Source: an uncultured bacterium (GTDB taxonomy: Bacteria; Cyanobacteriota; Vampirovibrionia; Gastranaerophilales; Gastranaerophilaceae). Taken from it: 64,000 nt of DNA. A program made the translations under genes and the position numbers. A model generated the notes under the pieces. That model was not told the DNA's origin. It saw only the letters and a list, made by a program, of their open reading frames with translations, and did not search any database. Positions 13,613 through 25,637 of the stretch are shown in pieces. The stretch spans positions 1-64,000 of the forward strand of contig CACYKF010000005.1 of NCBI GenBank assembly GCA_902774905.1. Reading direction: 5' to 3'. Every line of letters begins with the position of its first letter. Positions within the stretch are counted from its first letter, which is position 1.

Positions 13613-13658
13613 TATTTATGATACTATGAATTCATTAATAATAAGTAGGAGGGTAAAT

Positions 13659-14221
13659 ATGAGTATATTCGGACAAACAAAAGGAACTGAAATCGAAAAA
13701 CAAATTGCTCAGTTGGCTACAGGAGAGGCTATTGGCGGAGCAATGTATTATGCGCTTGCAAAAGTTGTAAAGGAACAATTCGGACTTGACGATGTTGCAA
13801 AAGAATTTATAGAACTCGGCAATCAGGAAACAAACCATGGTGCTTTTTATGCATCTTTAAACGGAAGATACCCTTATGATGAAAAAACATTCTGGCAGAT
13901 GGTCAGAGGGCTGTCAAAAGCAGAATACAAAGGCGAAAATAATATAAATCAACTTATAAACTTGCATCTATGGGGGTTGATGAAAAAGCAGTAGAACAGG
14001 TGCGAGAATTCGCACTTCAGGAAAAACACCATGGAGAAGTAACCGAAGCAATTATTAATAAATATGCACCAAAAGAAAATGATAATAACTCTAATAAGCC
14101 TGTATATGTATGCAAAGTATGCGGATTTGAGTATGTCGGAGATTTAGACAAAGAACCTGATGATTACAAATGCCCGATTTGCGCAATGCCTAAAACTGCA
14201 TTTGAAAAGAAAATACTTTAA
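13659..14221 (+). pseudogene. Rubrerythrin, interrupted by a frameshift
   Basis: Rubrerythrin-type protein that reduces peroxide in anaerobes. The first frame (13659-13994) has the start of the diiron four-helix bundle: GEAIGGAMYYAL and ETNH (an ExxH). The second frame (13970-14221) continues with a second ExxH, EKHH, and ends in a rubredoxin domain, CKVCGFEY...CPICAMP. The two frames join naturally near 13958-13968 by a one-base shift; after it the reading is NLASMG-like, as expected for the family. Either one base was lost in nature or in the assembly. The start has a strong AGGAGGG. Repaired, it would be about 188 residues, a normal length. Confidence 0.85.
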
Positions 14222-15731: not shown

Positions 15732-16805
15732 ATGACACTTGATAACCGAAAAATAAAAAAAATAGGAATCCCAAGAGCGATTTCATATTATACAAACTAC
15801 CCTTTCTACTACGGATTTTTTAATGCGTTAGGGGTAGAAGTTGTACTGTCTGATAAAACGACCGCAGAAATTATAAAAAACGGCAACAAGTATGTCGCAT
15901 CGGAAACTTGCCTGCCTATAAAAGTTTTTGTTGGACATGTCGTAAATTTGCTTGAAAAAGGAATAACAGATATTTTTATTCCGTCAATTCAATCTACAGG
16001 ATACAAAATTAATAATTGCAGTAAAATCAGAGGATTGCCGGAAATTATCAGAAATGTCATAGACAAGCCTTTTAATATGATAGAGCCGACTTTTGACAAG
16101 ACAGAAAAACTCGGTTTTAAACAATTTTGGGTTGAAAGTGCAAAATCATTGGGGATTACAGATAAAAAACTTATTAAACAGGCAATAGAATCGGGCTGGG
16201 AATGTTATGACAATTTCAGAATGATGACTGAATCAGGCATTAATTACACTACGGCACTAAATAATGCCCTTAACGGAATCTGCGAAAAGAAAAACATCGA
16301 ACTTGTCAAACCGATATCAGTTGTAATTATGGCTCATGGTTACAACCTGTTTGATGAAAGAATTTCGCTAAACCTGATAAAAAAACTTGAAAAAATGGAT
16401 ATTAAAGTTTATACATCTTTAAATATTCAAAGAGAAGACGCAATAAATGCGCTCAATGAACTTGATGAAACGCAGTATTGGGCAAACGAACTTGATTTAA
16501 CAGCAACAGCGGCGCATTATCTAATAAAAAATAAAATTGACGGTATAATTGCACTCTCAGCGTTTGGTTGCGGACCTGATTCGCTCATGGTAGATGAAAT
16601 TGAACATCACGCAAAAGATTTCGGAGTTCCGTTATTGCACCTCAATACTGACGAACACACAGGTGAAGCAGGGTTTATAACAAGGCTTGAAGCCTTTGCT
16701 GATATGCTTTTGCGCAAAAAACGACAAAAACTCAAAAACATTGAACCCGAAAAAGACGATTTATCTCAAACAGAAAAACAAAAAATCTTACTTTCAGTAA
16801 AATAG
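15732..16805 (+). CDS. COG3580/DUF2229-like protein (2-hydroxyacyl-CoA dehydratase activase-related)
   Basis: Member of the DUF2229 group, distantly related to 2-hydroxyacyl-CoA dehydratase subunits and double-cubane iron-sulfur proteins. Recognisable are IGIPRAISYYTNYPFYYGFFNALG at the N-terminus, SETCLPIKVFVGHVVNLL with a likely cluster Cys, SAFGCGPDSLM, and LNTDEHTGEAGFITRLEAFADML at the C-terminus. In many anaerobes this module is fused to, or next to, a BadF/HgdC-type ATPase activase; none is visible here. It starts a tight run with the PHP protein, a COG3581-like paralogue and a radical SAM enzyme. The biochemical role is unknown. Confidence 0.75.
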   Translation: MTLDNRKIKKIGIPRAISYYTNYPFYYGFFNALGVEVVLSDKTTAEIIKNGNKYVASETCLPIKVFVGHVVNLLEKGITDIFIPSIQSTGYKINNCSKIRGLPEIIRNVIDKPFNMIEPTFDKTEKLGFKQFWVESAKSLGITDKKLIKQAIESGWECYDNFRMMTESGINYTTALNNALNGICEKKNIELVKPISVVIMAHGYNLFDERISLNLIKKLEKMDIKVYTSLNIQREDAINALNELDETQYWANELDLTATAAHYLIKNKIDGIIALSAFGCGPDSLMVDEIEHHAKDFGVPLLHLNTDEHTGEAGFITRLEAFADMLLRKKRQKLKNIEPEKDDLSQTEKQKILLSVK

Positions 16806-17849
16806 ATGAAGAAAAATACAACAGATAAATACAAATATTTTGGTGCAATTCATATTCACACCTTGTACTCTGACGGTTCAGGGGATATTGAAACCATAAC
16901 AAATTCGGCAAAAAAAGCCGGATTAGACTGGATTATAATAACAGACCACAACAATTTTGATGTGCAGGAAGGGGTTATTAACGGTATTTATGTAATAAAG
17001 GGCGAAGAAATTTCGCCCGATTACGGTAACCACTATATTGCATTGGGTATAAATAAACTAATCCCTCCTTCGGATAATTGCCAAGATAATGTTGATGCAG
17101 TAAAATCAGACGGAGGATTTGGATTTTCGGCGCACCCTGATGAATCCGATATTCGCAAAAACTCACACCGACCACTAAAATGGACTGATAAAAATATTAT
17201 TCCTGACGGGGTTGAGATATGGAATTTGTTTTCACAGTGGGGCGATAAGTATAATGAAAGAAATATTTTTACAATTGCATATTCTTATTTGTTTAAACAA
17301 AATCTAATAACAAAACCGTATCAAAAAACGCTGGAATGGTGGGACGAACTGAATAACAAAAATGGAAAAATCGTTCCTGCTATCGCAGGAAGTGATGCCC
17401 ATGAATTCAAAATTTCAAAATACATAATTCCTGTCAAAGTGCTTTCTTATGAATATTCATTCAAAACTATACTTAACCAAATTCATTTAAAAGAAGAATT
17501 GAGTCAAAATTTTAAAATAGCAAAAGAGCAGATATTAAACGCAATAAAAAAAGGAAATAACATAATCGCAAATATGTCTGTATGCAAAGATGTTCCAAAA
17601 ATCAGCATATCAAGCAGCAATACAACCGTTCAATGCGGAGAAACTTTAAAATTGGACAATAATACATATATTAATGTAGAATGTAAAAGAAAAATAAAAA
17701 TAACAGTAGTTAAAGACGGTATAAAAATAAACACGACAAATTCCAAAAAATTAAAACTCAAACTTTCTGAAGGGGGGAAGTACAGAGTTGAAACGGAATT
17801 AAACGGCAAAGGTTTTGCCTATTCTAACCCGATAATAGTGGAAGATTAA
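16806..17849 (+). CDS. PHP-domain phosphoesterase-like protein
   Basis: Metal-dependent hydrolase of the PHP fold. The motifs are AIHIHTLYSDGSG (about 12-24), IITDHNNF, and GSDAHEFK, with HPDESD between; these supply the metal-binding His and Asp. The domain ends near residue 225. The last 90 residues look like an immunoglobulin-type beta domain seen at the end of other PHP proteins (SISSSNTTVQCGETLKL...). No signal peptide. It starts one base after the preceding stop and ends three bases before the next start, so it is translated with the two DUF2229-like proteins. The substrate is unknown. Confidence 0.8.
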   Translation: MKKNTTDKYKYFGAIHIHTLYSDGSGDIETITNSAKKAGLDWIIITDHNNFDVQEGVINGIYVIKGEEISPDYGNHYIALGINKLIPPSDNCQDNVDAVKSDGGFGFSAHPDESDIRKNSHRPLKWTDKNIIPDGVEIWNLFSQWGDKYNERNIFTIAYSYLFKQNLITKPYQKTLEWWDELNNKNGKIVPAIAGSDAHEFKISKYIIPVKVLSYEYSFKTILNQIHLKEELSQNFKIAKEQILNAIKKGNNIIANMSVCKDVPKISISSSNTTVQCGETLKLDNNTYINVECKRKIKITVVKDGIKINTTNSKKLKLKLSEGGKYRVETELNGKGFAYSNPIIVED

Positions 17850-17852
17850 ACA

Positions 17853-19052
17853 TTGAATAAATCCAAAGAAAAACAATTTTATAAAGAGCGTTATGCACAA
17901 CAAGACCACTCTATAGCGACAAAAGACAGAGTTGTAGCCTGGCCGAGGATGGGAAATATTGATTTGTCTATGGGAGCGTTAGTCAGTTCTTTGGGAGCAA
18001 AAATTGTTATGCCTCCGCAAAACACAAACAGAGCACTTGAAATCGGAGTTAAAAACAGTATTGAAGGAATTTGTTTACCGTATAAACTCAATCTTGCCAA
18101 TTACATAATGGCACTTGAAAATGGTGCAAATACTCTGATGATGTTTCAGGCTCCGGGCTCTTGCAGGTTTGGCAATTATACCAAAATGGCTCAAAAAACT
18201 CTAAAAAAACTCGGTTACAAATTTGATATGTGCGTATTTGATATGTACCAAAGTAAAATGAAACAAACACTTGAAGCGTTTTGGCATGTCACAAGATGCT
18301 GGAATCCTTACAGATATTATAAAGGCTTTAGTACTGGGTTTAACAAAGCATTTGCAATAGATAAAGCCGAAAAACTGATGTTCTACACAAGACCGAGAGA
18401 ACTGAATAAAGGCGATGCCGAAAGATGTTATAAAAAATGGTATGAAATCATAAGAGAAACAACGTCTGTTCGTGAATGTAAAAAATTAAAACAGCGTGTG
18501 ATAGAAGATTTTGCAAAAATTCCTATAGATAAAGATAAAATTGTACCGACAGTTTATCTTTTGGGGGAATTTTTTGTATTATTAGACCCCTACACCAATC
18601 AGGAAATAGAAAAAACATTGGGCGAACTCGGTATAGAAGTTCAAAGACAAATATTTTTCTCCGATTGGTTAGAACATGTACTACAGCCATCGATATTTTA
18701 TAAAAAAGAATCTCATCGTCAACGCTGCGTACGCTTTGCTAAAGATTATATGAAACGCGCAATAGGCGGAGAATGCCTTGAAACTGTAGGCGATACGGTA
18801 TTTGCTGCAAAAAACGGTATTGATGGTATAATACATATAATGCCATTTTCCTGTATGCCGGAAATCGTGGCTCAAAATATTTTACCAAAAGTCAGCAGAC
18901 AGGAAAACATCCCCATACTCGAACTTGTGCTTGATGAACAAACGGGTAAAGCAGGGAATATAACAAGAATTGAGGCTTTTGCAGATTTAATTAAGAGAAG
19001 AAAGATAAAGAATATAAAGGAAAACGAGGAAGAAAATGCAATCAAGAAATAG
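17853..19052 (+). CDS. COG3581-like protein (2-hydroxyacyl-CoA dehydratase-related)
   Basis: Second DUF2229-like protein, 399 residues, related to the gene at 15732 but of the COG3581 type. Key stretches are WPRMGNIDLSMGALVSSLGA, GICLPYKLNLANYIMALENGA, APGSCRFGNYTKMAQ and the shared end LDEQTGKAGNITRIEAFADL. The Cys in CLPYK and SCRFG are candidates for a shared iron-sulfur cluster. COG3580 and COG3581 proteins are usually found together, so a complex is likely. The start is TTG three bases after the PHP stop. The last 17 bases overlap the radical SAM gene. Confidence 0.75.
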   Translation: MNKSKEKQFYKERYAQQDHSIATKDRVVAWPRMGNIDLSMGALVSSLGAKIVMPPQNTNRALEIGVKNSIEGICLPYKLNLANYIMALENGANTLMMFQAPGSCRFGNYTKMAQKTLKKLGYKFDMCVFDMYQSKMKQTLEAFWHVTRCWNPYRYYKGFSTGFNKAFAIDKAEKLMFYTRPRELNKGDAERCYKKWYEIIRETTSVRECKKLKQRVIEDFAKIPIDKDKIVPTVYLLGEFFVLLDPYTNQEIEKTLGELGIEVQRQIFFSDWLEHVLQPSIFYKKESHRQRCVRFAKDYMKRAIGGECLETVGDTVFAAKNGIDGIIHIMPFSCMPEIVAQNILPKVSRQENIPILELVLDEQTGKAGNITRIEAFADLIKRRKIKNIKENEEENAIKK

Positions 19053-20085
19053 TATGACTTTAGAAAGAATCAAATATTACAGACACTTATTCGGCGGTGC
19101 TTTAGAGTGTATCCAGAGCAGACTTTCAAAAAATCCGAAACCGTTATGTTTTTCATTAATGGTAACAAGTGCCTGCAACTGTGACTGTGATTTTTGTTTT
19201 TGGAAATCCAAAAAGGGACAAGATGATATGCCAACCGAAGAAATCGTAAGATTATTGACAGAAGCGGGTCAAATCGGATATATGGACAGTATTCTTTGGG
19301 GCGGAGAACCATTGTTGAGAAAAGATTTCACCGAAATCTGTAAGGCATCTCACGATGCAGGTTTATATACAAAAATTGCAACAAACGGTTGGTTTTTGGA
19401 AGAAAACCCCGGATTTGGGCAATACACAGATCTTATGTTCTGCTCTTTAGATGCTGTCGGTAAAGCGCACGATGATATTCGTCATTTACCGGGAATTTGC
19501 GACAGAGTAATGAGCGGTATTGAATACCATAAAGTCCATTCTCCGAAAATGAGAATTTATATTTGCTGTACCGTATCAACTCAGACTAATTTTGAACAGA
19601 TTAAAGAAGTTGCTCAGTACTGCAAAGATGCGGATATCTTGTTATACTTTACGGTAAATAAGGCGGCTTCAAGACCTGAAGAAGCAGAAAATGTCGTAAA
19701 TACAGAACTTGAAAATGACCAGTTATCAGAAATGTTTATAAAAATTAAAGAACTCAAAAAACAAGGTTATCCAATCAGAAATTCATACTACTTTATGGAT
19801 TACATTATTGCAAAGAAAAACTATTACGAATGTCATTGGCCAAGAATTGCAACCGTAATCTATTCAAACGGCGATATGCTTCGCTGCTATGACAGAAAAC
19901 CATTTATTAGCGTAAAAGGTCGTTCTTTAAAAGAAGTCATCAGTGACCCGGTATTTATAGAAACTGTTAATAAATGTAAAGATTGTAAACTCGCATGCGT
20001 AGGCAACTATGCGCTTGATGCATCGGGCTTGTGGAAGTTAGAATGGCCTGCAATAAAATCATTAATGGAAATCGCTATTACATAA
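19036..20085 (+). CDS. Radical SAM protein
   Basis: Radical SAM enzyme, 349 residues. The 4Fe-4S motif CxxxCxxC is Cys47-Cys51-Cys54 (in ACNCDCDFCFWK), followed by the SAM-binding ILWGGEPLLRKDF. An extra Cys49 sits inside the motif. The C-terminus carries spaced cysteines (MLRCYDRKP..., NKCKDCKLACVG) like a SPASM or twitch auxiliary cluster. It overlaps the COG3581 gene, with GAGG before its ATG, so it belongs to that unit. Overall shape resembles HpnH/MoaA-type enzymes; its substrate is unknown and may be a lipid or cofactor. Confidence 0.85.
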   Translation: MQSRNSMTLERIKYYRHLFGGALECIQSRLSKNPKPLCFSLMVTSACNCDCDFCFWKSKKGQDDMPTEEIVRLLTEAGQIGYMDSILWGGEPLLRKDFTEICKASHDAGLYTKIATNGWFLEENPGFGQYTDLMFCSLDAVGKAHDDIRHLPGICDRVMSGIEYHKVHSPKMRIYICCTVSTQTNFEQIKEVAQYCKDADILLYFTVNKAASRPEEAENVVNTELENDQLSEMFIKIKELKKQGYPIRNSYYFMDYIIAKKNYYECHWPRIATVIYSNGDMLRCYDRKPFISVKGRSLKEVISDPVFIETVNKCKDCKLACVGNYALDASGLWKLEWPAIKSLMEIAIT

Positions 20086-20162: not shown

Positions 20163-22538
20163 ATGAAAATTTTTCAACGAATAATTGCTGCTCTGCTTGT
20201 ATTACTATTTTGTAATATGCAGGTGGCGTTTGCGGTGACAGAAGCTGATGCTCTGAATTTAAAAGATGTATTTGAAAATAATCATCAGAGTATAGATGAA
20301 GCGCATTATGTTGCAGGCAGTCAAATAGAAGAAATGTTTAACGGAAAAGAAAATAAAGTTTCCGGAACAATTTTGCGCCAAAAAGGTTATGACCATTTTA
20401 CAAACCCTATTGATGCATCTTCTGCAACAGGCAAATATGATGGCGGTTACAGACTCACAATCGGTACAAGATTAATTGTCAATGCCTATGGAGATTCAGT
20501 GGATATGATGGGAATGACAGGTGCAAATCTTGTTACTCCGTCAAGCCAAACAGAAGTATCTTCAAGCGGTGCAATTTTTATATCAGGTATAGGCTTGATA
20601 AAAGCAGAAGGAAGAACATTAAGCGAAGTTGAAAATGATGTAAATTCAATTGCTCGAAGCAAGTATAACAATATGCGTATAAAACTAAATGTTTTATCGG
20701 GCAGTCAGTTCCCTATATATGTATATGGTGAAGTCGGCAGACCGGGTAAAGTTTTAATCGGTAACAATTCTACACTTATGGATGCTTTAGGGGCAGCAGG
20801 CGGAATCAAGAAAACAGGTACATTGAGAAATGTTATGTATAACAAAAAGAGTACCGACCTTTATTATCCGATATTTTTAGGGCAAAACACAAATATAATG
20901 GTAAAACCGAATGACACAATTTTTGTCGGTAAAATCGGCAGTGTTGCGGCTCTCAAAAACGGGGTAAAAGAACCCGGTATTTACGAATTAAAAACAGGTG
21001 AAACTCTTAAAGACTTGGTTAAATACGCAGGTGGATTACTTGTTACAACAAGACAAGATGATGTCATAATGACAGGTTTTGATAAAAACGCAAACCAAAA
21101 AATTGCAAGAACAGTAAAATGGGATAATGCAATAAATTCTAAACTCACAAACGGCGAATCAGTCGAATTTAAAGAAACATATAATAATTCCGAAAACACA
21201 ATCGCAATTCAAGGTAATATTAAACACCCTGCGACTTATGTTTATCACGAAGGTATGAGACTTTCAGAAATTTTGAAAAATGAAGACGAATTTTTGGAAG
21301 AAACATTTACAAATCAGGCTGTTATAAGAAGAATATCCGGTGACGGCAGAAATGTTGAAATTATTCCTGTATTCTTAAAAGAATTTTTCTCGGGAATGAA
21401 CGATCCGTTACTTCAGCCGAGAGATGTAATTACGATTTATAAAAGTACAAATTCTCAGTTTGTTGATGTTTACGGATGTATAAATACCCCAAAACATATG
21501 CCTTATATGACAAATATGACATTGGCAGATGTATTGTCAAATATTAAATTTATGGAATCAGATATTAAAACAGATGAAAATGAATATAAAACATCAAGAA
21601 ATGACGGTAATTTAAGATTAAAAGTCGGTACTGAAAATTCAAATCAATTAATCCCGACAGAAAATGTAGCGGTTGAAATTACACCGCCGGGAGGAAGCAC
21701 AAGCATTTACTACATGTACGATTTGATGGTAAGTTATGATAGAATCAAATCCATCAGTATTGCACCGGAATCAAAAGTGTTCTTCAGAACATTAAGAAAC
21801 AATGAAGTAATTAAGACTGTTAAGGTTTCAGGCTTTGTCAAAGAACCCGGAGTATTCTCTTTTGTCAAAGGTCAAAAATTGTCTGATGTCATTGAAATGG
21901 CCGGCGGTTTGACTGAAGATGCGAATTTAAGAGGTATTGTATTCAAGAGAACGAACTTGAAGGCTAAACAGACAGACATTGCGGAAAAGAATAACGAACG
22001 AGATATTCAGTTGATTCAAGGAAAACTTGCAAGCGGATATAAACAATCCGAACAAGACCAACAAGCTAAATTGGATACAATTGCGCAATTGCAAATTTCC
22101 CAAGGAAAATTATCCGAAAGATATACCGGTCAAATCGCTCTTAATATTAAAACCGGTGACATCAAAAAAATCGATAAAGTTGATAATATAGAAATTCAGG
22201 ACGGAGATGACATTTATATTCCGAGAATGTCTAATCATGTCAGCGTTATCGGTGAAGTCTATAATGAACAGTCATTCATTTATAAAAACGGAACAAGAGT
22301 CAGAGATTACATCCGAGAAGTTGGCGGATATACTCCTAATGCAAACAGATTCAGAGTATATAAAGTCGGAGTAAACGGCAGAGCAGTAAGGGCTCACAAA
22401 AGAACAAAAGTTTATGCAGGAGATACGATTGTTGTTCCAAGAAGAATTGCCGGAAATGATTGGATTACACCAATTTCAGCCGCACTTCAGGCATTCAGCC
22501 AGGTATTTTTGATGGCATTTGCAGTTCATAAATGGTAA
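20163..22538 (+). CDS. Large polysaccharide export protein with six SLBB domains
   Basis: Outer-membrane/periplasmic exporter of the Wza-like family, 791 residues, twice the size of ordinary Wza. A signal peptide (residues 1-24, ending AFA) lacks a clear lipobox. A poly-export domain lies around 95-175 (YRLTIGTRLIVNAYGD, GLIKAEGRTLSEVE). SLBB-type repeats with the pattern V-x-G-x(2)-x-P-G begin near residues 182, 260, 344, 432, 549 and 691. The 620-660 region is Gln/Lys-rich and probably coiled. It ends in a hydrophobic stretch. No Wzc kinase or glycosyltransferase is adjacent, so it may serve a glycan made elsewhere. Confidence 0.87.
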   Translation: MKIFQRIIAALLVLLFCNMQVAFAVTEADALNLKDVFENNHQSIDEAHYVAGSQIEEMFNGKENKVSGTILRQKGYDHFTNPIDASSATGKYDGGYRLTIGTRLIVNAYGDSVDMMGMTGANLVTPSSQTEVSSSGAIFISGIGLIKAEGRTLSEVENDVNSIARSKYNNMRIKLNVLSGSQFPIYVYGEVGRPGKVLIGNNSTLMDALGAAGGIKKTGTLRNVMYNKKSTDLYYPIFLGQNTNIMVKPNDTIFVGKIGSVAALKNGVKEPGIYELKTGETLKDLVKYAGGLLVTTRQDDVIMTGFDKNANQKIARTVKWDNAINSKLTNGESVEFKETYNNSENTIAIQGNIKHPATYVYHEGMRLSEILKNEDEFLEETFTNQAVIRRISGDGRNVEIIPVFLKEFFSGMNDPLLQPRDVITIYKSTNSQFVDVYGCINTPKHMPYMTNMTLADVLSNIKFMESDIKTDENEYKTSRNDGNLRLKVGTENSNQLIPTENVAVEITPPGGSTSIYYMYDLMVSYDRIKSISIAPESKVFFRTLRNNEVIKTVKVSGFVKEPGVFSFVKGQKLSDVIEMAGGLTEDANLRGIVFKRTNLKAKQTDIAEKNNERDIQLIQGKLASGYKQSEQDQQAKLDTIAQLQISQGKLSERYTGQIALNIKTGDIKKIDKVDNIEIQDGDDIYIPRMSNHVSVIGEVYNEQSFIYKNGTRVRDYIREVGGYTPNANRFRVYKVGVNGRAVRAHKRTKVYAGDTIVVPRRIAGNDWITPISAALQAFSQVFLMAFAVHKW

Positions 22539-22634: not shown

Positions 22635-24152
22635 ATGAGAGTACAAAAACAATCAACGGTATGGCAATCCAACTCAATGGGTGCTTTTGACAGAATAAAA
22701 TTACAGTTAAGCAATCTTGCAATAGATTCGGCTATAAATTATCTCGGGCACAATTTCAGTAAAGAAAAACTGATAAATCTTGCAAAAATATTTGAAAAAA
22801 TTTCGGGTTCAAAGGGAGGAATTAACCACGCAAAAAGAATGCAGTGGCTTTTTGAAACTGAACACGCACATCTTTTCTGGTGGAAAAGAATTTTAACAGA
22901 ACTTCACCCTAATTGCCGTAACAAATGGATTAAAAACTTTTTTGTAAATGGCTATTACGGTGATAATTTGAGAAAGCGTTCAGAATTTAATGAGAAAAAC
23001 GGTTTCTTCCCGCCGACAGTACTTTTGGCAAGTATTACAAAAAGATGTAACTTCAATTGCAAAGGCTGCTGGGCACACGAATATGATGTAAAAGAAGATT
23101 TGTCAAAAGATAAATGGAGAGAAATATTTACCGAAGCAAGAGATGTTATGGGGATTCACATTTTCCCAATCGTAGGCGGAGAACCTTTTGCAAGAAAAGA
23201 ATTTCTTGAACTTTGCGAAGAATTTAACGACTGCACATTTATCACATTCACAAACGGTTCTTTAATTACCGAAAAAACAGTTGAAACACTAAAAAGACTC
23301 GGTAATGTTCAGCCTATGTTCTCCTTAGGCGGTTTGAAAGAAAACACTGATGCCGTAAGAGGTGACGGATGTTTTGATATGGTTATGCAAAAGATGGATA
23401 TGCTCAGAGAAGCAGGGATTTTCTTCGGTGCATCCGTTACAGCTACAAGTCAAAACTGCGACGAAGTTACTTCGGACGATTTTATGAAGATGCTTTCAGA
23501 TAAAGGATGCTTATGGACTTGGTTTTTCCATTATGTTCCTGTCGGTGACAGTCCTGATGTTAGTATGACTCCGAACGCACAGCAAAGACGCCAAATTTTG
23601 AAAGCAGTTTACAATGCAAGAAATACTTTGCCAATGATGACTGTTGATTTTTGGGGCGACGGACCTGAAATGATGGGTTGTATTGCAGGCGGTCGTCAAT
23701 ATATTCATGTTAATCCAAGAGGAGATGTTGAACCTTGCACATTTGTTCATTTGGCTACTCATAATCTTAAAGATTGCACATTAACAGAGGCTTTGGCTTC
23801 TCCGTTTATGACTGCAATAAGAAACGGTATTCCTTATGAAGACGGCAATATGCTTCGTCCTTGTATGATTGTTGACAGACCTGATGTATTGAGAAAATAC
23901 TACGAAGAATTTAAACCTTACGAAACACATAAAGGCGCTGCAGATTACCTTACAAATCCTCAAATTAAAGCAGAAATTGACAAGTATTCATCTGAAGTAA
24001 AAGAAATTCTTGATAAAGATTGGAGAGAAAATCTATGGATGACAATATTCCCGCTTGAGGGGGAATATTACATTGACAGAGATCACTTTTGCTCAACCGA
24101 AAAACCTGAACACGCCTGCGATGGGCACTGTGCAGGATGCGGATGTCATTAA
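22635..24152 (+). CDS. Radical SAM protein with Cys-rich tail
   Basis: Radical SAM enzyme of 505 residues. An N-terminal region of about 120 residues, rich in aromatics, precedes Cys138-x3-Cys142-x2-Cys145 (RCNFNCKGCW) and the SAM motif VGGEPFARKEF. C-terminal cysteines (GDVEPCTFVH, RPCMIV) suggest a SPASM-like auxiliary cluster, and the protein ends in CDGHCAGCGCH, a dense Cys/His tail. A strong AAGGAG precedes its ATG. A PAP2 phosphatase and a lipid kinase follow at 12 and 0 bases, which makes a membrane-lipid substrate an attractive but unproven idea. Confidence 0.85.
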   Translation: MRVQKQSTVWQSNSMGAFDRIKLQLSNLAIDSAINYLGHNFSKEKLINLAKIFEKISGSKGGINHAKRMQWLFETEHAHLFWWKRILTELHPNCRNKWIKNFFVNGYYGDNLRKRSEFNEKNGFFPPTVLLASITKRCNFNCKGCWAHEYDVKEDLSKDKWREIFTEARDVMGIHIFPIVGGEPFARKEFLELCEEFNDCTFITFTNGSLITEKTVETLKRLGNVQPMFSLGGLKENTDAVRGDGCFDMVMQKMDMLREAGIFFGASVTATSQNCDEVTSDDFMKMLSDKGCLWTWFFHYVPVGDSPDVSMTPNAQQRRQILKAVYNARNTLPMMTVDFWGDGPEMMGCIAGGRQYIHVNPRGDVEPCTFVHLATHNLKDCTLTEALASPFMTAIRNGIPYEDGNMLRPCMIVDRPDVLRKYYEEFKPYETHKGAADYLTNPQIKAEIDKYSSEVKEILDKDWRENLWMTIFPLEGEYYIDRDHFCSTEKPEHACDGHCAGCGCH

Positions 24153-24164
24153 GGATAGTAAAAA

Positions 24165-24779
24165 GTGAAAAAAAGTATTATTATACTTGTAATATTATTT
24201 ATAATTTATTCAATTATTGTAAACACCTGTCCCGTTGTTACTCAATGGGACAGAGGTGTAATATTATCCGTTCAGGAATTATTAAAAAATCTGCCTGTTT
24301 CCATACCTGATATGGCAGGTTCATGGCTTTACAACATTTGTTTGTATCTTCCGCTTATTATTGGCGGGATTTACTTTTTCAAAAAATATTTACTGATTGA
24401 TTTGATAATTTTTGTATCATCTCCAACGATTGCATATTGTTTTAACAAAATATTAAAAAATGTAGTGCAAAGACCAAGACCTCCCATTGAAATGCAATTA
24501 TTTGTCCATAAATCGTCATTCAGTTTTGTATCAAATCATACTTTTATTACGGCGACTCTCTACGGACTTGTTATATATTACCTTGTAAAATATTGTAAAA
24601 ATAAAATTATAAGGACTGCGGGGATAAGTTTTGCGATATTATGGATGGCATTTGAGGGTTTCAGCAGAATTTGGTTAGGGGTTCACAATCCGACTGATGT
24701 TATCGGAGGTTATTTACTTGCATTAATATTTATTTTGATTTATATAAAACTGATAAGACTTATCGGGGGCAAATACTAA
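24165..24779 (+). CDS. PAP2-family membrane phosphatase
   Basis: Membrane acid phosphatase of the PAP2 superfamily (undecaprenyl-diphosphate or phosphatidate/phosphatidylglycerophosphate type), 204 residues with about six helices. The three motifs are KNVVQRPRP, SNHT (in place of the usual SGH) and SRIWLGVHNPTDVIGG. All catalytic His and Arg are present. The start is GTG, 12 bases after the radical SAM stop; the lipid kinase begins immediately after its stop. The substrate is probably a lipid phosphate. The weakly polar N-terminus acts as the first membrane helix rather than a cleaved signal. Confidence 0.85.
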   Translation: MKKSIIILVILFIIYSIIVNTCPVVTQWDRGVILSVQELLKNLPVSIPDMAGSWLYNICLYLPLIIGGIYFFKKYLLIDLIIFVSSPTIAYCFNKILKNVVQRPRPPIEMQLFVHKSSFSFVSNHTFITATLYGLVIYYLVKYCKNKIIRTAGISFAILWMAFEGFSRIWLGVHNPTDVIGGYLLALIFILIYIKLIRLIGGKY

Positions 24780-25637
24780 ATGAAAAATGCTCTTGTCGTT
24801 TTCAACTATAATGCAGGTCGCAAAAAAGCAATTCTCCACAAAAAAATAATACATAAATTTCTGCTGAAAAGATGCAGTTTGTTTAAATTTGTATCAATAG
24901 ATGAACTTGATAATACCGATTTAAACGGATATGACACTATTTTTGCGGTTGGCGGTGACGGGACAGTTAATAAGGTTGCAAGAATTATCGCAGGTACTAA
25001 TAAGGTTCTTGCAATAATTCCAAGCGGTACAGCAAATTTGCTTTCTGCAAAATTAGGGATCCCGTCAAGTCTAAAAAAATCATTAAAAATAATTGATAAA
25101 AATAATATCAAAAAAATTGACGCTCTTAATATAAATGATTTTCCGTCATTTTTACGATGCGGATTTGGCTACGATTCTGATATAATCTGCAAAACTCCTC
25201 AGTCAATTAAAAATGATTTCGGTTATTTTGCATACTTTTTGGCAGGTATAATTTTTGCATTGAAACTGAACATAAGAACTTATGATATCAATTTTGACGG
25301 CAAAGATATCAAAATAAAAGCAAGTTGCATAATTGTTGCAAATTCGGCGAATATGTACCGAAATTGGGTTTCTGTCGGAAGAAAAAATGAACTTGATGAC
25401 GGACTTATGGATGTTTTTGTTCTAAATACCAAAAACCCAGTTTCATTTTTTATTGAATTTCTGAAAATCCTTTTGAATATAAAATTTAATACAAAAAAAA
25501 CTAAATATTTTAAAACGAATAAATTAACTATAAAAAATAACTGGGTTGCCTGTCACATAGACGGAGAAAAAATGAAATTGAAAAACGACATAAATATCTC
25601 TGTCATCCCGCAAATTTTGAATGTTTATTCAAAATAA
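24780..25637 (+). CDS. Diacylglycerol-kinase-like lipid kinase
   Basis: Soluble lipid kinase of the DAGK catalytic family (YegS/DgkB/BmrU type), 285 residues. The nucleotide-binding signature VGGDGTVNKVARII is at about 58-71, followed by IPSGTANLLSAKLGIP. The C-terminal beta domain has CHIDGEK near the end. The family phosphorylates diacylglycerol or related lipids. It starts directly at the stop of the PAP2 gene, so kinase and phosphatase activities on related lipids are paired, probably for lipid recycling. Confidence 0.88.
   Translation: MKNALVVFNYNAGRKKAILHKKIIHKFLLKRCSLFKFVSIDELDNTDLNGYDTIFAVGGDGTVNKVARIIAGTNKVLAIIPSGTANLLSAKLGIPSSLKKSLKIIDKNNIKKIDALNINDFPSFLRCGFGYDSDIICKTPQSIKNDFGYFAYFLAGIIFALKLNIRTYDINFDGKDIKIKASCIIVANSANMYRNWVSVGRKNELDDGLMDVFVLNTKNPVSFFIEFLKILLNIKFNTKKTKYFKTNKLTIKNNWVACHIDGEKMKLKNDINISVIPQILNVYSK

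Follow-up and report, generated by a model that had tools for sequence, protein, structure and literature searches.

2-Hydroxyacyl-coenzyme A (CoA) dehydratases (HADs) pair a component D with an ATP-driven activase (PMC11574389) and, once electrons have been transferred at the expense of ATP, react by a ketyl mechanism (PMC11574389); HAD enzymes and BzdO carry one site-differentiated [4Fe-4S] cluster per subunit (PMC11971306, PMC11574389). PlsA and Ger, which belong to the same superfamily, convert glycerolipid esters into vinyl or alkyl ethers (PMC8788747, PMC9702350, PMC11150832), and PlsA-like proteins that lack an activation domain are reported to be common in anaerobes, where their role is unknown (PMC13274423). 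Here we describe a locus for a related pair of proteins, COG3580A and COG3581A, in a stretch of 64,000 nucleotides (the window) from an uncultured bacterium of the order Gastranaerophilales (Cyanobacteriota). A preliminary description had presented positions 15732–20085 as a four-gene unit, in which two DUF2229-like proteins with a common ending are encoded in a tight run with a PHP phosphoesterase and a radical SAM enzyme (rSAM1). This cluster is conserved, but the unit is twice as large: it is an accessory module of eight genes, of which the remaining four, encoding an SLBB protein, a second radical SAM enzyme (rSAM2), a PAP2 phosphatase and a lipid kinase, had been overlooked. A described system with this gene set was not found, in keeping with the earlier view that the system is undescribed.

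The nearest relatives of the pair with known function are PlsA and Ger. Like PlsA, PlsR and Ger, the pair consists of DUF2229/HGD-D reductase domains with three conserved cysteines per domain. However, PlsA/Ger are fusions, with two activation and two reduction domains on one polypeptide or spread over two, whereas the window encodes its subunits in separate genes; the reductase endings of PlsA/Ger, DExxNLGAAxIRxRSL and DYDxxxSSxNQxNRI, differ from those of the window pair, and identity amounts to 22–28%. Motif, fusion state and tree rule out that the pair is itself PlsA/Ger, and no fused PlsA is present among the DUF2229 or BadF matches in the window's genome. With component D of the HADs (HadBC/HgdAB, activated by component A), the pair has the HGD-D domain in common, and PDB entry 3O3M is matched by profile, but the sequence match is limited to the C-terminal 60–65 residues and, unlike HAD systems, the locus has no CoA pathway genes nearby. 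The best solved relative by profile is the double-cubane cluster protein (DCCP; 6ENO/7YYL, E 0.001–0.005). An assignment to DCCP itself was rejected, with 19.3 bits against a cut-off of 350 for NF040772 and only three conserved cysteines per subunit.

A further system for comparison is the COG3580-COG3581-COG1924 (activase) trio of Monoglobus pectinilyticus (WP_102365312/311/310), a stand-alone type of Bacillota for which a characterised function was not found. Its subunits are 35% and 34% identical to those of the window, both sets have the ending DE(H/Q)xGE/K...TRxEAFxD, and both fall outside the PlsA clade. The trio carries its activase inside the operon, whereas here the activase is encoded in trans, and the operon of the trio lacks the PHP, radical SAM, kinase and PAP2 genes of the window module.

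Organisation of the module

The eight genes, with their Pfam scores, are as follows:

15732–16805, + strand: COG3580A, predicted Fe-S subunit, DUF2229 with an HGD-D C-terminal domain, 357 aa (PF09989 163.1 bits, PF06050 40.8 bits)
16806–17849, + strand: PHP metallo-phosphoesterase, CehA/McbA-like, 347 aa (PF02811 32.7 bits)
17853–19052, + strand: COG3581A, predicted partner Fe-S subunit, 399 aa, TTG start (PF09989 31.5 bits, PF06050 27.8 bits, weaker than COG3580A)
19036–20085, + strand: rSAM1, radical SAM enzyme, 349 aa (PF04055 44.6 bits)
20163–22538, + strand: SLBB/Poly_export outer-membrane polysaccharide-export-type protein, 791 aa (SLBB 125.7 bits)
22635–24152, + strand: rSAM2, radical SAM enzyme of the SPASM type with a helical N-terminal domain, 505 aa (PF04055 62.8 bits, SPASM 22.1 bits)
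24165–24779, + strand: PAP2-superfamily phosphatase, 204 aa (PF01569 72.5 bits)
24780–25637, + strand: DAGK_cat/YegS-type lipid kinase, 285 aa (PF00781 65.8 bits, PF19279 39.9 bits)

The first four frames fill positions 15732–20085 exactly as had been described. COG3580A and the PHP gene are separated by 0 bases, the PHP gene and COG3581A by 3 bases, and rSAM1 overlaps COG3581A by 17 bases. A survey of this gene order, which had been suggested as a check, revealed that it is kept across genera, as is the linkage of the module; COG3580A adjoins the PHP gene in 18 of 18 inspected loci, with the latter placed between the two genes of the pair. All four genes are under purifying selection, with ratios of nonsynonymous to synonymous substitution rates (dN/dS) of 0.01–0.14 in comparison to three relatives. 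The PHP protein has a complete set of metal ligands (H16, H18, D23, H48, E67, H76, H110, D197 and H199, all invariant) and falls narrowly below the threshold of the CehA/McbA profile NF038032 (74.3 bits, cut-off 80). At the thresholds used, neither the YegS-type kinase nor PAP2 has another close family member in these genomes.

Co-occurrence and spread

Of the 57 genomes sampled from family f1, 20 carry the full set of genes for COG3580A, COG3581A, rSAM1, rSAM2, SLBB, PAP2 and the lipid kinase, and the other 37 lack all of them, without a single discordant genome; because the genomes share ancestry and were picked by a tool, this co-occurrence does not translate into a formal probability. The earlier view that the radical SAM enzyme belongs functionally with the pair is supported. 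Presence is mixed within six genera, namely g1 (2/9), g2 (8/15), g4, g5, g6 and g10, which implies several independent joint gains or losses. Where the block is dispersed over the chromosome or over contigs (G008, G018, G039 and G046), all of its parts are retained; rSAM1 stands apart from the pair in G018, G046 and the deep families.

Outside f1, one genome of family f6 (G016) has the whole module (L048, L125). Its radical SAM enzymes and COG3581A are 84–90% identical to those of the window, compared to about 75% identity between other f6 activases and that of the window's genome, which suggests horizontal transfer or a misbinned contig. Two genomes of family f7 (G007 and G013) have the set without COG3580A. 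In families f2–f4 the layout is rSAM2-COG3581A-COG3580-COG3581B with a single COG3580, and rSAM1 is located elsewhere, in G019 next to the lipid kinase. This layout is probably older than that of f1, and its occurrence in deep families marks rSAM2 and the pair as an old association.

Identity and ancestry of the pair

Cysteines C60, C96 and C280 of COG3580A are invariant in 21 of 21 sequences, the PlsA references included, and C74, C104 and C334 of COG3581A are kept in 35 of 36. Three cysteines per subunit would fit one site-differentiated [4Fe-4S] cluster each, as in the HAD enzymes and BzdO, rather than a double cubane. Against the HGD-D cut-off of 28.4 bits, COG3580A scores above and COG3581A just under. 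The C-terminal endings common to COG3580A and COG3581A (DEHTGEAGFITRLEAFAD and DEQTGKAGNITRIEAFAD, respectively), which agree with the preliminary description, are the homologous HGD-D C-termini of two related subunits and not a product of chance, and the two proteins look like paired subunits.

In the trees of both subunits, the window pair (pair A) groups with a second pair of the same genome (pair B), nearest to the stand-alone Monoglobus proteins and apart from the PlsA-type domains of Listeria, Fusobacterium, Haliovirga and Collinsella. BLAST scores follow the same pattern: COG3580A reaches 190 bits against Monoglobus and 99 bits against Listeria PlsA, and COG3581A 204 and 68 bits, respectively. 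By these measures the pair can be assigned to a stand-alone COG3580/COG3581 type, related to PlsA/Ger but outside that clade. The split between COG3581A and COG3581B lies near the base of the order, and COG3580A seems to have arisen later, by duplication of COG3580B.

A search of solved structures with single sequences of the pair gave no match. A profile search of the PDB retrieved, for either subunit, DCCP and the beta subunit of 2-hydroxyacyl-CoA dehydratase, in the C-terminal domain only, and the AlphaFold model of COG3581A from a single sequence reached a predicted local distance difference test (pLDDT) score of 34, too low to be of use.

An activase encoded in trans

By analogy with the HADs, a heterodimer would be expected to act together with an HgdC-type activase. 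The preliminary description had considered this activase missing, with the hydrolase and the radical SAM enzyme in its place. Indeed, the four-gene run contains no BadF-type ATPase. However, when the genome to which the window belongs (1.99 Mb in 51 contigs, 99.8% complete) was searched, a full BadF/HgdC activase came to light on another contig, at C1:67759-68784 (PF01869 164 bits; TIGR00241 183.6 bits, cut-off 125.4); it shares 52% identity with its counterpart in the Monoglobus trio. The activase was found in 74 of 79 genomes of the order, always as a single copy, and in 69 of 69 genomes of good quality. Since every good genome tested encodes the activase in trans, its place has not been taken by the hydrolase and radical SAM genes.

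Pair B is almost universal among the sampled genomes. In the window's genome, its COG3580 lies on contig C19 and its COG3581 on contig C7, mutually unlinked. As a single activase occurs alongside one or two reductase pairs, activation of pair A is most simply explained in trans, and the C1 activase is the candidate for this step. A short, diverged BadF-like protein of 224 aa, encoded beside a methionine aminopeptidase-like gene (G000:C34, L002:534-1208), keeps both activase cysteine motifs and is a possible second activase.

The gene for COG3581B starts 2 bases behind one resembling glycine dehydrogenase subunit 2 (G000:C7, L013:5111-7683). In another genome (G057), the open frame that spans COG3581B comprises 860 aa, suggestive of read-through or a fusion with the upstream gene.

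The radical SAM enzymes

rSAM1 combines the motif C47xxxC51xxC54 with invariant SPASM/twitch-like cysteines near its C-terminus (C266, C284, C317 and C321). No named family was matched above its cut-off; the PTO1314 family (TIGR03961, 109.4 bits, cut-off 306) and HpnH (TIGR03470, 47.6 bits, cut-off 225) were rejected. Among 292 genomes sampled across the phylum, rSAM1 turned up at E <= 1e-30 only within family f1.

rSAM2 belongs to a family of full-length relatives from many Clostridia, among them Butyrivibrio fibrisolvens, as well as from Spirochaetes, Omnitrophota, Bacteroidales and Deltaproteobacteria. The predicted structure of rSAM2 (pLDDT 84.8) has an extra N-terminal helical domain, and a fold search with it returned generic SPASM/twitch and other radical SAM enzymes only, without an assignment. 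Common neighbours of rSAM2-family genes are TetR regulators and ABC ATPases, which are uninformative. Tandem rSAM2-family genes, one from each of two subfamilies, were seen in Eubacterium ramulus and in a metagenome-assembled genome of Lachnospiraceae (L137, L143), and relatives with about 32–33% identity are carried on plasmids of Escherichia albertii and Klebsiella pneumoniae (L090:2254-3633, L114:2896-4197).

Elsewhere in the window, at 13626–14221, a rubrerythrin/rubredoxin-like protein is split over two overlapping frames (13626–13994 and 13970–14221), as if frameshifted or misassembled.

Possible functions of the module

We tentatively favour, at a little under an even chance, a role of the module in the anaerobic remodelling of an envelope lipid or a lipid-linked glycan by an activase-driven heterodimer and two radical SAM enzymes. 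COG3580A and COG3581A would be the two subunits of a presumably oxygen-sensitive heterodimer within the 2-hydroxyacyl-CoA dehydratase/benzoyl-CoA reductase superfamily, and in each subunit three cysteines would bind a single low-potential [4Fe-4S] cluster. ATP-driven electrons would reach this pair from the lone HgdC-type activase on the other contig, which would also serve the paralogous pair B. The pair could then generate a ketyl-type radical on a substrate carbonyl, leading to reduction or dehydration, as PlsA/Ger do with glycerolipid esters, and further C-H chemistry in this pathway may fall to the two SPASM-type radical SAM enzymes. PAP2 would remove, and the YegS-type kinase restore, the phosphate of a lipid carrier; the PHP protein might hydrolyse a phosphoester that arises as a by-product or intermediate, and the SLBB protein would serve the locus as its outer-membrane exporter. 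Two points favour a lipid or lipid-linked substrate: the relatives with known function reduce or dehydrate carbonyl compounds or, in the PlsA/Ger branch, act on glycerolipid esters, and the lipid kinase and PAP2 are always present.

Several points weigh against such lipid remodelling. The pair lies outside the PlsA/Ger clade and lacks the C-terminal motifs of that clade, so that the same substrate is not implied; that the C1 activase acts on pair A is a step we infer; the carrier handled by the lipid kinase and PAP2 could be undecaprenyl phosphate; and lipid data for these organisms were not found in the literature searched. Moreover, the SLBB exporter, together with the neighbours of the module in several relatives (a Bac_transf initiating sugar transferase, glycosyltransferases and a Wzx-like flippase), indicates a surface polysaccharide as much as a membrane lipid. 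The main rival explanation builds on these genes: an unusual sugar or a glycan linked to undecaprenyl would be produced or altered by the pair and the two radical SAM enzymes, with PAP2 and the kinase recycling the undecaprenyl carrier and the SLBB protein exporting the polymer. The SLBB/Poly_export gene has the same phyletic profile as the core, which agrees with this proposal, but the polysaccharide neighbours vary from one genome to the next, and none is as recurrent as the core genes. To our knowledge, no activase-dependent HAD-type enzyme acts on sugars, which also counts against the proposal, and on balance we consider it unlikely.

A split pathway is less probable still. Here the pair would be a divergent glycerol-ester reductase with the function of Ger/PlsA, and rSAM2 the membrane-spanning-lipid synthase Mss, together yielding ether-linked membrane-spanning lipids. 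The distribution of the rSAM2 family makes rSAM2 an attractive candidate for Mss, as it is compatible with the groups that have reported Mss homologues (PMC11868695, PMC13274423); the adjacency of rSAM2 to the COG genes is old in the order, and one rSAM2-family locus lies beside PlsA (L186) and another beside a COG3580-COG3581-activase trio (L152). However, these are just 2 of 80 rSAM2-family loci in named genomes near COG3580/COG3581-type genes, and neither motif nor tree places the pair with PlsA/Ger. The weakest explanation, which we regard as very improbable, is the electron relay that the preliminary description had put forward, in which the pair, as a low-potential Fe-S complex, would pass electrons to the radical SAM step without an activase. 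The usual reductants of radical SAM enzymes are flavodoxin or ferredoxin. While the tight translational linkage of the pair with rSAM1 and their full co-occurrence in family f1 speak for a relay, every good genome encodes the activase in trans, rSAM1 and the pair lie apart in G018, G046 and the deep families, and the characterised relatives of the pair are themselves catalysts and not carriers (PMC11971306, PMC11574389).

Implications for the stand-alone COG3580/COG3581 type

The co-occurrence profile assigns to the stand-alone pair a set of fixed partners: two radical SAM enzymes, a lipid kinase, a PAP2 phosphatase, a PHP protein and an exporter. A more far-reaching proposal, possible but on the doubtful side, is that an activase-driven, two-subunit ester or carbonyl reductase of the stand-alone type, two radical SAM enzymes, one of which might join acyl tails, and a dedicated lipid kinase/phosphatase pair produce a new ether-linked or membrane-spanning envelope lipid that has spread between families. 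A comparison of lipids between species of the same genus with and without the whole block would directly address the role of stand-alone COG3580/COG3581 proteins, and one activase serving two different reductase pairs would also be demonstrated.

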